The notes beneath the pieces were generated by a model, which worked only from the letters and a program-made list of their open reading frames with translations, was not told the origin of the DNA and made no database searches. A stretch of DNA of 64,000 nt from the NCBI RefSeq assembly GCF_000344805.1, contig NC_020453.1, forward strand, positions 4,249,001 to 4,313,000, given 5' to 3'. The DNA is from Bradyrhizobium oligotrophicum S58 (GTDB taxonomy: Bacteria > Pseudomonadota > Alphaproteobacteria > Rhizobiales > Xanthobacteraceae). Position numbers and translations under genes: made by a program. Shown here piece after piece: positions 22,391 to 30,420 of this stretch (positions are counted from its first letter, which is position 1; every line of letters begins with the position of its first letter).

Positions 22391-23443
22391 ATGTCCCGGG
22401 AGCCTGCGCCCTCGCCCTGGTGGTCGCCGCAGCGGCACGCCGATCTCAGGCCGTTCCTGAAGGCGCGGGCGGCCATCGTCCGTGCCTTGCGGGCCTGGTT
22501 CGAGGAGCAGGGCTTCACCGAGGTCGAAACCGGCATCCTGCAGCTGTCGCCGGGCAACGAGACCCACCTGCACGCGCCGCGGACGGAGCTGACCGACGCT
22601 GAGGGAACCCGGCATCGACGGTATCTAAGAACCTCTCCTGAATTCGCCTGCAAGAAGCTCCTGGCCGCCGGCGAGCGCCGCATCTTCGAATTCGCCCGGG
22701 TTTTCCGAGACCGCGAGCGCGGCGATCTGCACCTGCCGGAATTCACGATGCTGGAATGGTACCGGGCTGAGGCGCCCTATGACGCGATCATGGCCGATAC
22801 GGTGGTGGTGATCGCCCATGCCGCGCAGGCGACCGGAATCCGGCAGTTCGGCTTCCGCGGCCGGACCGCCGATCCCTTCGCCGAGCCCGAGCTGCTGACC
22901 GTCGCCGCCGCCTTCGAGCGCCATGCCGGCATCGACCTGCTGGCGACCATTCGCGACAAGACGGGAGACCGCGACGGGCTGGCGGCCGTGGCCCACGGCA
23001 AGGTCAGGATCAGCGACGACGACACCTGGTCGGACCTGTTCAGCAAGCTCTTGGTCGAGCATGTCGAGCCGAAGCTCGGCAACGGGCGGGTGACCGTGCT
23101 GTATGAATATCCGGCGCCGGAAGCGGCGCTGGCGCGGGCCAAGGCCGGCGAGCCACGGGTGGCCGAACGGTTCGAGGTCTATGCCTGCGGCGTCGAGCTC
23201 GCCAACGGCTTCGGCGAGCTCACCGATGCCGCCGAGCAGCGCCGCCGCTTCGAGGACGAGATGGCGGAGAAGCAGCGGCGCTATGGCGAGCGCTACCCGC
23301 TCGACGAGGATTTCCTCGCCGCTGTGGCCGCGATGCCGCAGGCGAGCGGCGTGGCGCTCGGTTTCGACCGGCTGGTGATGCTGGCCGCCGGTGCCGTCAG
23401 GATCGATCAGGTGGTGTGGACGCCGCCGGCAGGTGAGCGATGA
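22391..23443 (+). CDS. epmA: elongation factor P--(R)-beta-lysine ligase
   Basis: The 350-residue protein is a class II lysyl-tRNA synthetase paralogue without the anticodon-binding domain (GenX/PoxA). It attaches (R)-beta-lysine to EF-P. Visible class II motifs are motif 2 [25 protein letters not shown] and motif 3 [24 protein letters not shown], typical of lysine recognition, is present. The ATG at 22391 is chosen; the frame is open far upstream but only across the efp gene. It overlaps epmB by four bases (ATGA), so the two are translationally coupled. Confidence 0.95.
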
Positions 23444-24534
23444 ACAGGATCGAACGTCCCACGACGCTGCGAAGCGCCGCGGATCTGGTCGCACAAGGCC
23501 TCGCTGAGCCAAGCGAGCAGGCGGCACTCGAGCGCGTGGCGCAGCGCTATGCGGTCGCGGTGACGACCCACCTCGCCGACCTGATCGATACGAACGATCC
23601 CGACGATCCGATCGCGCGGCAATTCGTGCCCAGCCCGGACGAGCTGAAGGCAGCGCCCGGCGAGCGTGGCGATCCCATCGGCGATGACGCGCATGCACCA
23701 GTGCCGGGCATCGTGCACCGCTATCCCGATCGCGTGCTGCTCAAGCTCGTCCACGTCTGCGCCGTGTATTGCCGCTTCTGCTTCCGCCGCGAGATGGTGG
23801 GGCCGGGCAAGGACAACGCGCTGTCGGAGGAGGCTTATCGCGCGGCGCTCGCCTATATCCGAGGGCATGGCGAGATCTGGGAGGTGATCCTCACCGGTGG
23901 CGATCCGCTGATGCTGTCGCCGCGGCGGCTGAAGGAGGTCATGGCCGATCTCGCCGCCATCGATCACGTCAAGATCATCCGCCTCCACACGCGGCTGCCG
24001 GTCGCCGATCCCCACCGCATCACGCCGGCGCTGGTCGATGCGCTCAAGGTGCAGGGCGCGGCGACCTGGGTCGCGCTGCACGCCAATCATCCGCGCGAGC
24101 TCAGCGCAGAGGTGCGCACCGCCTGCGCGCGGCTGGTCGATGCCGGCATTCCCATGGTCAGCCAGTCGGTGCTGCTGCGCGGGGTCAACGACGATGCGGC
24201 GACCTTGGAAGCGCTGATGCGCGCCTTCGTCGAAACCCGCATCAAGCCGTATTATTTGCACCATGGCGACCTCGCGCCGGGCACCGCGCATCTGCGCACC
24301 AGCCTGGCGCACGGCCAGGAGCTGGTTCGATCGCTGCGCGGCCGCGTCTCCGGCCTGTGCCAGCCCGATTACGTGCTCGACATTCCCGGCGGCTACGGCA
24401 AGGCGCCAGTGGGTCCGCAATACCTCACTGCCAATGAATCTGTTGAGCAGGATCATGCCTCGGGTGCGCAAACGCGCTATCGTGTGATTGACTATTGCGG
24501 CGAGGTGCACCTCTATCCGCCCCCAGGCGAATGA
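23440..24534 (+). CDS. epmB: EF-P beta-lysylation radical SAM enzyme (lysine 2,3-aminomutase family)
   Basis: The 364-residue radical SAM enzyme makes (R)-beta-lysine for EF-P. The iron-sulfur motif CxxxCxxC is Cys107, Cys111 and Cys114 in HVCAVYCRFCFRRE. A GGDPL motif for SAM binding follows near residue 150. PLP-binding and zinc-related C-terminal parts of the larger clostridial aminomutases are reduced, as in EpmB. Overlap with epmA and the divergent efp gene make the EF-P role far more likely than lysine catabolism. Confidence 0.93.
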   Translation: MNRIERPTTLRSAADLVAQGLAEPSEQAALERVAQRYAVAVTTHLADLIDTNDPDDPIARQFVPSPDELKAAPGERGDPIGDDAHAPVPGIVHRYPDRVLLKLVHVCAVYCRFCFRREMVGPGKDNALSEEAYRAALAYIRGHGEIWEVILTGGDPLMLSPRRLKEVMADLAAIDHVKIIRLHTRLPVADPHRITPALVDALKVQGAATWVALHANHPRELSAEVRTACARLVDAGIPMVSQSVLLRGVNDDAATLEALMRAFVETRIKPYYLHHGDLAPGTAHLRTSLAHGQELVRSLRGRVSGLCQPDYVLDIPGGYGKAPVGPQYLTANESVEQDHASGAQTRYRVIDYCGEVHLYPPPGE

Positions 24535-26833: not shown

Positions 26834-27919
<1,086 letters not shown>

Positions 27920-27956
27920 GGCGGGCTCCTGCGTGTCTTGATGTGCACCTGCCGGC

Positions 27957-27985
27957 AATAAAAAAGCCGCCAGGTCTGGCGGCTT
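27957..27985 (-). terminator. attenuator terminator of aroG
   Basis: On the minus strand AAGCCGCCA (27985-27977) pairs with TGGCGGCTT (27972-27964) across a GACC loop and is followed by TTTTTATT. This is a strong intrinsic terminator 38 bases before the aroG start, so transcription ends here unless the alternative structure forms. Its 5' arm (GCCGCCAG, 27983-27976) can instead pair with the leader segment GCTGGCGGC at 28040-28032. Confidence 0.85.
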
Positions 27986-28009
27986 GTTCGGATAGCTTGC
28001 TTCAATGTG

Positions 28010-28090
28010 TCAGATTGAGCGCGATCCTCCCGCCGCCAGCGAGCTGTCGTAGGTAAAGTACCAATAATAGCTGGTGGCGGCGTTGATCAT
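28010..28090 (-). CDS. aroG attenuator leader peptide (26 residues, aromatic-rich)
   Basis: A 27-codon frame on the minus strand starts with ATG at 28090 and stops with TGA at 28010. Residues 8-14 are Tyr-Tyr-Trp-Tyr-Phe-Thr-Tyr, that is six of seven aromatic and covering all three end products of the pathway. Codon block 4-7 encodes segment 1 (GCCGCCACCAGC, 28081-28070) and codons 17-20 encode segment 2 (28040-28032). Segment 2 can pair with segment 1 or with the 5' arm of the terminator. Ribosome stalling at the aromatic codons would mask segment 1 and free segment 2 to block the terminator. No Shine-Dalgarno is visible; the promoter position suggests leaderless translation. Confidence 0.85.
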   Translation of the reverse strand: MINAATSYYWYFTYDSSLAAGGSRSI

Positions 28091-28096
28091 GGAAGC

Positions 28097-28125
28097 TCTA
28101 TAGCGGCCGCGCGGCCGCTTGTCAT
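28097..28125 (-). promoter_or_regulatory. aroG leader promoter with palindromic spacer
   Basis: On the minus strand ATGACA (28125-28120) and TATAGA (28102-28097) are 17 bases apart, a good sigma70 promoter. Initiation would be expected near 28090, the A of the leader ATG. The spacer is almost entirely the perfect 18-base palindrome AGCGGCCGCGCGGCCGCT (28102-28119). The -35 lies inside another hairpin (CTTGTCAT at 28118-28125 with 28133-28140) that may also end the upstream HdeD transcript. Confidence 0.7.
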
Positions 28126-28150: not shown

Positions 28151-28738
28151 TCAGGCATTCCGCGCCGCCAGCGCCATGCCGATCATGGACATGCCGCCGA
28201 ACAGCAGGTTGATGCCGACCAGGAGGCCAATCGCCCACATCGCCGTGCCCGGGAGCCCGGAAATGATGATGCCGGCGATCGCGATGTCGACGACGCCCGA
28301 GATCGCCAGCCACGACCAGCGTCCCGACAATTCGCGCCGGTGCTCCAGCGCGTACATGATGGTGGCGACACCCTCGGCGAGGAAATAGACGCCGATCACG
28401 ATGGTCAGGGTCACCGTGCCCTGGATCGGCTGCGCCACCAGGATGAAGCCGGCAATGATCGCGAGCACGGCCGACAGCAGCGACCACCAGAAGCCGGGCA
28501 TGCCGCGCGCCCAGAAGGTGAACGCGAGCCCGGCGATGCCCGAGATCAGGAACATCCAGCCGAGGAAGATGGTCACCGCGAGACTCGCAAGAGGCGTCAG
28601 GATCATCGCGAGCAGGCCGAGGACCGCGAGCAGGATGCCCTCGATCAAAAAGGCCTTCCAATGCGCGCGGACCGCCGCGCCCATTTCGGACTTGATGCGC
28701 TCGAGCTCGGGGGGGATCGTATCCTGAGGAAGGGTCAT
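28151..28738 (-). CDS. HdeD family membrane protein
   Basis: The 195-residue protein has about six hydrophobic helices arranged in pairs (DUF308/HdeD repeat), for example AFLIEGILLAVLGLLAMIL, AVTIFLGWMFLISGIAGLAF and TIVIGVYFLAEGVATIMYAL. HdeD is linked to acid resistance at high cell density in E. coli; in rhizobia its role is not established. The conserved GVYFLAEG is typical. It is upstream of aroG in the same direction but separated by the aroG promoter and attenuator. Confidence 0.9.
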   Translation of the reverse strand: MTLPQDTIPPELERIKSEMGAAVRAHWKAFLIEGILLAVLGLLAMILTPLASLAVTIFLGWMFLISGIAGLAFTFWARGMPGFWWSLLSAVLAIIAGFILVAQPIQGTVTLTIVIGVYFLAEGVATIMYALEHRRELSGRWSWLAISGVVDIAIAGIIISGLPGTAMWAIGLLVGINLLFGGMSMIGMALAARNA

Positions 28739-28929: not shown

Positions 28930-30420
28930 TCATACGGAGAACGTGATCGTCGGTCCGGGCGCGCTGATGCTTCGGATCGTCAGATCGGATGCTGTGCCGT
29001 CCCACCAGTTGCTGTTCGGCCTGGTCGTCGACGAGAAGACGCCGCCTTCGCCGTAGAGGTCGCCGGGGTCGCCGTCATTGACACCCATTTCGAGGTCAGC
29101 GGAGCCGTCAGCCTGGATCAGCGAGCATTCGTAATGGGAGGCGGGTGTCATCGCTTCGTTACTGTTGTTGCCGGCCTCGTCGACCTTCCAGATCGCGAGC
29201 CCGACGCTGGGCAGGCTCGCGTCGCGACCGGAGCGTTCGCGGTTTTCCAGGATGAAATATTGGGTTCTGTTGCGGCGAAACAGGCCGAACTCGTTCTTGC
29301 CCGCCGGCAACTGGCAGCTTCCCCCGGCCGCGAGCGGCGTCACCTTGGAGGACCAGCCCGCCGCATGTTTGAGATAGGCTCCGACCTGGGTCGGGTTCTT
29401 GGGGTCGACATTGGCGCCCGCACACATCAGGCAGTATGAGCCGACGCCGCGCGATTCATTGCCGTAGTCGTAGAGGTCGGGAAAATCGCAGATCATGTGG
29501 CCGTTCTCGTGACAGAACGTGCCGAGCGTCAGCTCGGAGGACATGTCGGTGATCTGGTAGTCGTTGGCGAACTTGCCGGGCGCAAGCTGAATGGGGGCCT
29601 GCAGGTGGAACGAATGCGGCCATAATCCCTGTGACCAATTGTTGACCCGCGTTCCCGCATAAAAGACGTTGATCGCATAGATGAACTTCTGATCGTCTGC
29701 CGAGAGGCGGCTGAAGTCGAAGCCGTTGTTCATGTGATGCGCCAGCGCTTCGAGGATGAGCTCGCGTGCACGCATCGGGTACTGGACGCTTTCGTCGGTG
29801 TAGTATGTCCGCGGCTTGCTGGCCTTGAACCAGGGCGCAACGATGTTGGTGTAGGTGAGCTTGCCGTCGGACACGTCGAAGAAATAGTCGCGGACCGACC
29901 CGTTGTTGCCGAAACCCCGATAGCCCTGCTGATTGCAGAAGTTGTCGACTCCGCTCTGGGGGATGACGGCCTGCTCGTCGTCGAACTCGACGAGCAGGCA
30001 GAGGCCGACGAAGGTCCCGACCGTCTGCCGTTGTGGCGGAGCCGGCGTGGCGCCATTGACGGCGTCCGCCAGCATGCGCAGGCGATGTTGGTCGCGGCGG
30101 ACCTGCCAACGCGATGGCGAGCGCGGAAGCCCCGGCGATACGTAGGCGCTGATCTGGTTGGGGGCGGGCGGCTTGAGACGCGGCTGAATTCCTGCCGAAA
30201 GGGGATTCATCGCGTCGGCGACGATTCCGCTCGGCGCAGGATGCTGCGTCACGTCCCTGCGGGCATATTCGAAATAGCCGGACGCCGGATTTCGCACGAC
30301 GGTAAAACCGCTGGACGTGGTGAACGTCGCCTGGTGCTGATTGCCCGTGCCGTAGACCTTGAGCTTGGTGCCGTCAGGCTGCGTGAAGATGAATTCGCGA
30401 TTTGCGAATGGCATCGACAT
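28930..30420 (-). CDS. M6 (immune inhibitor A-like) metalloprotease domain protein
   Basis: The 496-residue protein has the M6 zinc-binding motif His304-Glu305-Asn-Gly-His308 followed by DFPDLYD (312-318), the family signature. The region from about 135 to 410 is the protease; the C-terminal 80 residues look beta-rich (ECSLIQADGSADLEMGVNDGDPGD). The N-terminus (FANREFIFTQPDGTKLKVYGTG) resembles the propeptide start of related proteins. No signal peptide is visible, so export, if any, is non-classical. Start could be 30420 or 30414. It is divergent from a coiled-coil protein gene 145 bases away. Confidence 0.85.
   Translation of the reverse strand: MSMPFANREFIFTQPDGTKLKVYGTGNQHQATFTTSSGFTVVRNPASGYFEYARRDVTQHPAPSGIVADAMNPLSAGIQPRLKPPAPNQISAYVSPGLPRSPSRWQVRRDQHRLRMLADAVNGATPAPPQRQTVGTFVGLCLLVEFDDEQAVIPQSGVDNFCNQQGYRGFGNNGSVRDYFFDVSDGKLTYTNIVAPWFKASKPRTYYTDESVQYPMRARELILEALAHHMNNGFDFSRLSADDQKFIYAINVFYAGTRVNNWSQGLWPHSFHLQAPIQLAPGKFANDYQITDMSSELTLGTFCHENGHMICDFPDLYDYGNESRGVGSYCLMCAGANVDPKNPTQVGAYLKHAAGWSSKVTPLAAGGSCQLPAGKNEFGLFRRNRTQYFILENRERSGRDASLPSVGLAIWKVDEAGNNSNEAMTPASHYECSLIQADGSADLEMGVNDGDPGDLYGEGGVFSSTTRPNSNWWDGTASDLTIRSISAPGPTITFSV

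Follow-up and report, generated by a model that had tools for sequence, protein, structure and literature searches.

A predicted ribosome-mediated attenuator with aromatic control codons upstream of the type I DAHP synthase gene in Bradyrhizobium oligotrophicum S58 and other Alphaproteobacteria

The type I DAHP synthase gene aroG is preceded by a short open reading frame (ORF) rich in aromatic codons and by an intrinsic terminator in the 64,000-nucleotide stretch of Bradyrhizobium oligotrophicum S58 DNA analysed here (the window). This leader is very probably a ribosome-mediated transcription attenuator of aroG. The reading is based on the leader itself, its codons, the terminator, the conservation of these elements among relatives, and the spacing of the promoter. 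A second copy of the attenuator occurs elsewhere in the same genome, before a gene for a DUF1127-like protein.

On the minus strand the locus reads ATGACA, 16 nt, CTATAG, 7 nt, the leader ATG at 28090, the terminator, AGGAG, and the GTG start codon of aroG at 27919. An earlier note on this DNA described a 26-codon minus-strand leader with Tyr-Tyr-Trp-Tyr-Phe-Thr-Tyr (YYWYFTY) at residues 8-14, and both the sequence and the ORF list confirm it. The leader is the sole ORF with at least five aromatic residues in eight among the 609 ATG-initiated ORFs of 8-60 aa in the window. Segments 3 and 4 had been claimed to form an intrinsic terminator 38 nt before aroG; the terminator scan finds this hairpin, the distance from 27957 to the GTG at 27919 is 38 nt, and the gene product matches TIGR00034. 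It is the only type I DAHP synthase detected in the 8.26-Mb genome. The genome also encodes a type II DAHP synthase, for which a scripted search of the 420 nt upstream found no aromatic leader and inspection by eye saw no T-run. The elements of the window locus, from the promoter to the gene, are as follows.

28120..28125, minus strand: -35 hexamer ATGACA, 16 nt from the -10 hexamer (sequence)
28098..28103, minus strand: -10 hexamer CTATAG, 7 nt from the leader ATG (sequence)
28010..28090, minus strand: leader ORF, 26 aa, MINAATSYYWYFTYDSSLAAGGSRSI, ATG at 28090, TGA stop at 28010 (sequence and ORF list)
28070..28081, minus strand: segment 1, protector and partner of segment 2 (fold; class-wide conservation weak)
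28049..28069, minus strand: control codons 8-14, TAT TAT TGG TAC TTT ACC TAC (within the permissive window of the stall scan)
28032..28040, minus strand: segment 2, GCTGGCGGC (fold, pairing across relatives)
28024..28027, minus strand: likely inner helix of the antiterminator, 5' strand GGAU (folds, fitted alignment, re-deal test)
27999..28020, minus strand: apical hairpin with the stop codon (28012-28010) in its loop (folds, fitted alignment)
27990..27993, minus strand: likely inner helix of the antiterminator, 3' strand AUCC (folds, fitted alignment, re-deal test)
27976..27983, minus strand: segment 3, GCCGCCAG (fold, pairing across relatives)
27964..27972, minus strand: segment 4 (terminator scan, pairing across relatives)
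27960..27985, minus strand: intrinsic terminator, hairpin 27985-27964 of 9 pairs with a loop of 4, plus T-run (terminator scan)
27926..27930, minus strand: Shine-Dalgarno sequence AGGAG of the DAHP synthase gene (sequence)
26834..27919, minus strand: aroG, type I DAHP synthase, GTG start, 361 aa (TIGR00034 aroFGH; PF00793)

A second ORF that runs over the terminator (TTG start, 28005-27913) was judged by eye to be a chance occurrence. The adjacent genes encode a lysine-2,3-aminomutase-like protein (23440-24534, plus strand; TIGR03822) and an M6 metalloprotease-domain protein (28930-30420, minus strand; TIGR03296), and no link of either to the attenuator was seen.

Searches for type I DAHP synthases gave matches in 93 of 98 genus genomes, in 16 of 149 of a family sample (seven of the genus, one a weak false match), in 42 of 297 of an order sample (three with weak false matches only), and in 16 of 385 of a class sample (two of the genus, two weak matches). 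The 148 distinct true type I loci were all fetched and inspected; weak matches to other proteins (L045, L151, L152, G461, G365, G442 and the second G495 match) were omitted, and a spurious antisense row, L008 (+), is retained in the count of A3. Leader and terminator are present at 147 of the 148 loci, and the remaining one, L139, is cut by the contig end before its leader, leaving 147 readable leaders; these loci are related, and the counts are not independent. Conservation of the aromatic codons, proposed earlier as a check, is borne out, with Tyr and Phe codons in 147 of 147 leaders and Trp codons in 140 of 147. The leader peptides are 23-28 aa long at these 147 loci, and every one except L145, which has two aromatic residues, carries at least four within eight. 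In L145 (MNAARTLSARFYPRSIAGGIRGA) and L143 the aromatic codons are few or rearranged next to an intact terminator; these are perhaps attenuators losing or shifting their signal.

A covariance model (R1), made from 29 leaders and applied with an E cutoff of 1e-5 to the 297 genomes of the order sample, recovered all 39 genomes in which the protein search had found a true type I enzyme, together with three of one other family, and it also matches the duplicate in the genome of the window. Within the genus the element occurs in 139 of 146 genomes; the seven without it include all five in which the search for the type I enzyme had drawn a blank, the remaining two lying outside that search. An 18-base core of the element yielded 96 stretches in named genomes, and a type I DAHP synthase follows in 75 of the 80 listed, in genera that include Devosia, Caulobacter, Kaistia, Inquilinus, Novosphingobium, Sphingobium and Rubellimicrobium. 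The five core matches without a DAHP synthase (L172, L176, L177, L180, L203) resemble chance or coding matches. Because the pattern fixes the core, this set was kept out of the codon statistics. Outside the class, four of 16 fetched type I loci (L257, L258, L259, L260) have an aromatic leader, for example MNAAATRFYWYYFPKPLAEEGLRSP, with a GC stem and a T-run. The other 12 lack such a stem under a test that demands GC-rich stems and that AT-rich ones could escape, and two of these 12 carry an aromatic-rich short ORF. The aromatic leaders outside the class may reflect transfer or an older origin.

Tyr-rich leaders such as MIKTAATFVYFYYVTSIPAAA, with a similar terminator, are what R1 matched in the three genomes of the other family (L327, L328 and L329, in genomes G355, G488 and G471 of one family of the order). 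The ORF that follows the L327 leader encodes a tyrosyl-tRNA synthetase (TIGR00234, HMM), the other two look alike by eye, and the element is likely to be a tyrS attenuator.

The promoter-like boxes are placed with little freedom. The -35 and -10 boxes lie 16 nt apart in 135 of 147 loci, and the end of the -10 box lies 7-10 nt from the leader ATG in 146. An SD-like tetramer precedes the leader in 4 of 147 loci, as against 138 of 147 for the DAHP synthase gene. Because the -10 box is so close to the ATG and SD-like tetramers are rare before it, the leader mRNA is very probably leaderless, a point that the earlier note does not raise. This arrangement also bears on whether the hairpin might simply end an upstream unit, with the small ORF present by chance. 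A same-strand ORF upstream does end at 28151, but the unit has conserved promoter-like boxes of its own and recurs before type I DAHP synthase genes in many families, and this explanation is extremely improbable. An inverted repeat, CTTGTCAT..ATGACAAG, overlaps the -35 box of the window and was considered as a repressor operator; the candidate was rejected on finding no repeat in the closest relative (L002). An SD-like GGAGG also occurs within the leader, where a pausing site is an idea only.

The RNA of the full leader folds into the pairs of segments 1:2 and 3:4 with -51.2 kcal/mol, a z of -4.8, and none of 200 shuffled sequences reached so low an energy; with segments 1 and 4 removed, segment 3 pairs with segment 2. 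The three pairings put forward in the earlier note can thus all form in the window. How far they are kept was assessed in 38 divergent leaders less than 90% identical to one another. The terminator anchor is present at 148 of 148 loci, with a stem of 7-11 pairs in 147; among the 38 leaders, 98.1% of its cells are paired and its covariation score is 0.132, as against at most 0.098 in slid versions. For 2:3 the evidence is weaker. Its cells are paired in 85.3% of cases against at most 63.9% when slid, but there are 3 doubly changed cells, in three pairs, a number equalled by 69 of 500 shuffles, and a version slid by -3 has a covariation score of 0.071 where 2:3 itself has 0.067. With so few double changes and a slid version that scores as high, the support for 2:3 is kept pairing more than covariation. 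The pairs at its two ends are open in 12 and 25 of the 38 leaders, and codon-shuffled leaders pair with segment 3 about equally well in many distant loci, at most 5 of 200 shuffles being as good in 12 of the 38. In L043 (CUGGCAG/CUGCCAG) a C-to-U change in segment 3 is matched by a G-to-A change in segment 2 and leaves a G-U pair in the terminator. The proposed covariation of the stems therefore held for the terminator, whereas 2:3 is kept with little covariation. Segments 1 and 2 are paired in 70.7% of cells, compared with no more than 60.4% in slid versions, and 66 of 500 shuffles reach 70.7%; 1:2 is strong in the genus of the window but weak across the class. The "complete four-segment" attenuator described earlier is, on this account, a feature of the lineage.

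The spacer between segments 2 and 3, for which the earlier note gives no structure, likely contributes an inner helix to the antiterminator, again on weaker evidence. GGAU/AUCC in the window is replaced by GGGG/UCCC, GGGU/ACCC or GGCU/AGCC in other loci, and double changes are found at 4 of 4 pairs in 53 matches aligned to the covariance model, an alignment that leans towards the structure. The same structure-fitted alignment contains 94 doubly changed cells over the whole structure, terminator included, as against 39 in shuffled and at most 31 in slid versions. When the spacer ends of the 38 loci were re-dealt, an alignment-free test in which relatedness still counts, 22 of 2000 re-deals were as good, and the median rank of a locus's own partner was 13.5 of 38. 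The spacer fold itself is barely better than shuffles (mean z -0.70; 1 of 38 below -2).

These elements overlap a part of the peptide that is itself conserved. Residues beyond the aromatic cluster recur as SYPxPLAEVGVRSI-like tails across orders, as might be expected if the product were an arrest peptide or acted in trans and its sequence mattered more than its aromatic codons; the S. meliloti peptide peTrpL acts in trans according to excerpts of PMC7298713. The tail differs between families, however, and its codons fall on segment 2, the inner helix and the apical hairpin, elements that keep their pairing and some covariation, so that RNA structure could account for its conservation. RNA structure is the likelier cause, and a peptide-based mechanism is improbable beside the attenuator reading.

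The positions from which a ribosome could act were modelled in a stall scan with a 30-nt ribosome footprint, RNA up to segment 3, and equilibrium pairing. Over the 147 loci, segment 3 is sequestered to a mean of 0.76 when the ribosome stands at the aromatic codons and to 0.37 when it has passed the last of them. In 103 loci the antiterminator window ends 0-2 codons after the final aromatic codon, and in the other 44 it ends elsewhere. A ribosome that has not yet reached the aromatic codons gives a mean sequestration of 0.79, RNA free of ribosomes 0.63, and a ribosome at the stop codon 0.51; at the window locus, pairing of 1:2 brings the no-ribosome value down to 0.24. The scan marks only the downstream edge of the permissive region, because segment 3 is taken equally well before the aromatic codons and often without any ribosome. 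Since it is also often taken with a ribosome at the stop codon, rich-medium termination would call for translation and kinetic effects outside the model. By the same model, an untranslated leader would permit read-through in many relatives, unlike the super-attenuation of E. coli trp (excerpts of PMC1183508).

We infer that the leader is translated and that stalling within it controls read-through in response to all three amino acids. Transcription would start at or beside the leader ATG, and a ribosome would load on the leaderless mRNA. Under a shortage of charged tRNA for Tyr, Phe or Trp, this ribosome would stall in codons 8-14 and leave segment 2 free; a stall at the first control codon would cover segment 1 as well. 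The free segment 2 would pair with segment 3, aided by the intervening inner helix and hairpin, segment 4 would be left with no partner, and RNA polymerase would continue into aroG. With ample Tyr, Phe and Trp, the ribosome would clear the last aromatic codon and cover segment 2, with 1:2 possible after its release; segments 3 and 4 would then pair and transcription would end.

For Phe, codon choice in the leaders departs from that of the genes. Of the 330 Phe codons in the leaders 282 are UUU, compared with 12 of 422 in 78 DAHP synthase genes, and Tyr is written UAU in 47% of cases in all 147 leaders and in genes alike. For the 38 divergent leaders the corresponding values are 73 of 100 versus 9 of 177 for UUU, and 66 of 100 versus 77 of 151 for UAU, a mild excess. 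A codon count around Trp, for which the script had selected W, was left unused as evidence that Trp is retained. Attenuators of leu operons use rare Leu codons (excerpts of PMC1183508), and by analogy UUU may be a slowly read codon for an amino acid that the leader senses; alternatively, the bias may come from a constraint on the RNA sequence.

The earlier note took the leader for one switch that reads all three end products. This is supported for Tyr and Phe, whose codons are in all leaders, and is less complete for Trp, which is lost from 7 of 147. The attenuator might then sense Phe and Tyr only, perhaps mainly Phe, with Trp as a passenger or minor input. It is Phe, more than Tyr, that is written with a codon avoided by the genes, and the Phe-Tyr-Phe leader aroR of Corynebacterium glutamicum responds to Phe and not to Tyr in excerpts of PMC11802643. 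Against this narrower sensing, which we regard as rather doubtful, Trp is retained in the 140 other leaders, and in seven leaders inspected the Trp and Tyr codons of the cluster share the stall window of Phe, the final Tyr being an exception in L106 and L140. The proposed mechanism retains sensing of all three.

Attenuation of a DAHP synthase gene has a precedent. In C. glutamicum, aroF is attenuated through the aroR leader with its Phe-Tyr-Phe (Neshat et al. 2014 as cited in PMC11802643; presented as a prediction in PMC4046766; both in excerpt). Like the element of the window, aroR is an aromatic-codon leader upstream of a DAHP synthase gene, and Phe starvation raises read-through there; it differs in its Phe-Tyr-Phe motif, in belonging to another phylum, and in that the excerpts name no Trp, the two systems being compared by description. 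The earlier statement that a Phe/Tyr/Trp leader on a DAHP synthase gene is unusual is qualified by this precedent. A motif upstream of aroF in Acholeplasma, uORFC-13-1, has been proposed as an attenuator (excerpts of PMC8632094). It too is a candidate upstream-ORF (uORF) attenuator before a DAHP synthase gene, but it has a U-run that encodes at least one Phe.

Ribosome-mediated attenuation is also described for Alphaproteobacteria in the trp attenuator (trpL, peTrpL) of S. meliloti and B. japonicum, and the S. meliloti trpL mRNA is leaderless, as predicted for the aroG leader. That system has Trp codons, a peptide of 14-15 aa, and trpE(G) as its target (excerpts of PMC7298713 and PMC10117765); the aroG leader, in contrast, has Tyr, Phe and Trp codons, 23-28 residues, a DAHP synthase gene as its target, and a likely inner helix in its antiterminator. 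Among Rfam families, Phe_leader (RF01859, pheL-pheA) and Trp_leader (RF00513) bear a weak likeness to the 3' half of the element with the terminator. The scores place it outside both (22.5 bits versus a gathering score of 55, and 17.5 versus 41), and at the window locus every family stays below its gathering score. Among the papers listed in the literature searches, none describes the alphaproteobacterial aroG element in its title, the opening of its abstract or the excerpts, although older comparative studies may contain an earlier prediction; aroG is absent from the main text of the B. japonicum start-site paper and of the Caulobacter genome-architecture paper. The alphaproteobacterial aroG element is real and conserved, and its duplicate is the more novel part.

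The second copy in the genome of the window lies at G000:C1:4462320-4462455 (-) and matches R1 with 111.2 bits (E 8.9e-30); in the fetched locus L274 it spans 7456-7320. A pattern for its start gave 14 matches, of which four (G053, G1133, G039, G1223) are unrelated, look like chance or coding sequence and were left out, so that the duplicate is present in 10 of 265 genus genomes, that of the window and nine relatives. The duplicate loci are listed on one line.

L274, L303, L304, L306-L307, L310-L312, L316-L319: duplicate of the attenuator; the DUF1127-like gene behind it has an AroG-like start

All ten duplicates have promoter-like boxes, a leader and a terminator, and the ORF that follows, about 113-118 aa long, has a start that resembles that of AroG (MPSTTDD or near; in G1108, VPRKTDDLRIDDVKQLRPPD versus VLSTTDDLRIKEIKELSPPD). 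The protein of the window's genome, the sole one scanned against Pfam, has a C-terminal DUF1127 domain (PF06568, E 5.9e-10), which the others resemble by eye; the two scanned against NCBIfam had no match. In a tree with 32 aroG leaders the ten duplicates form one clade (support 0.996).

Tyr is gone from the core of all duplicate leaders. Nine of them share the core HRFGR[WFI]THR, and that of G1108 is RRFWHFTHR. Codon 12 was excluded from the selection count because F, W and I vary there; over codons 7-11 and 13-15 the nine have four variable columns, all of them synonymous against a random expectation of 25%, and adding G1108 gives three synonymous and three nonsynonymous columns. For the duplicates, the stall scan mostly places the end of the permissive window at about codons 11-13, so that His7, Arg8, Phe9 and Arg11 would count and His14 and Arg15 hardly. 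Modelled in this way, the duplicate would be no clean sensor of one amino acid, and a general translation sensor is as likely. One history, which we hold tentatively and a little short of probable, is that the whole aroG module (promoter, leader, terminator and first codons) was copied once before a DUF1127 gene and that its Tyr/Phe/Trp control codons were rewritten to a conserved His-Arg-Phe-Gly-Arg-x-Thr-His-Arg while the RNA frame was kept, a natural change of specificity to His/Arg supply or general translation speed. A DUF1127 gene of S. meliloti is under uORF-dependent attenuation, and that system shares with the duplicate, known from its sequence, a uORF ahead of a DUF1127 gene, which is translated in S. 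meliloti. The S. meliloti uORF has a Shine-Dalgarno sequence and no intrinsic terminator, with Rho suggested in its place (excerpts of PMC12218461), whereas the duplicate is a copy of the aroG attenuator and has an intrinsic terminator.

A leader of the kind described here was found at type I DAHP synthase genes from several alphaproteobacterial orders, and none was seen at the type II enzyme of the window's genome. If one leader reads three end products, it would be a simple RNA "any-of-three" gate on the entry enzyme of the aromatic pathway. The duplicate, if functional, would amount to a natural experiment on the way an attenuator can change the signal that it senses.
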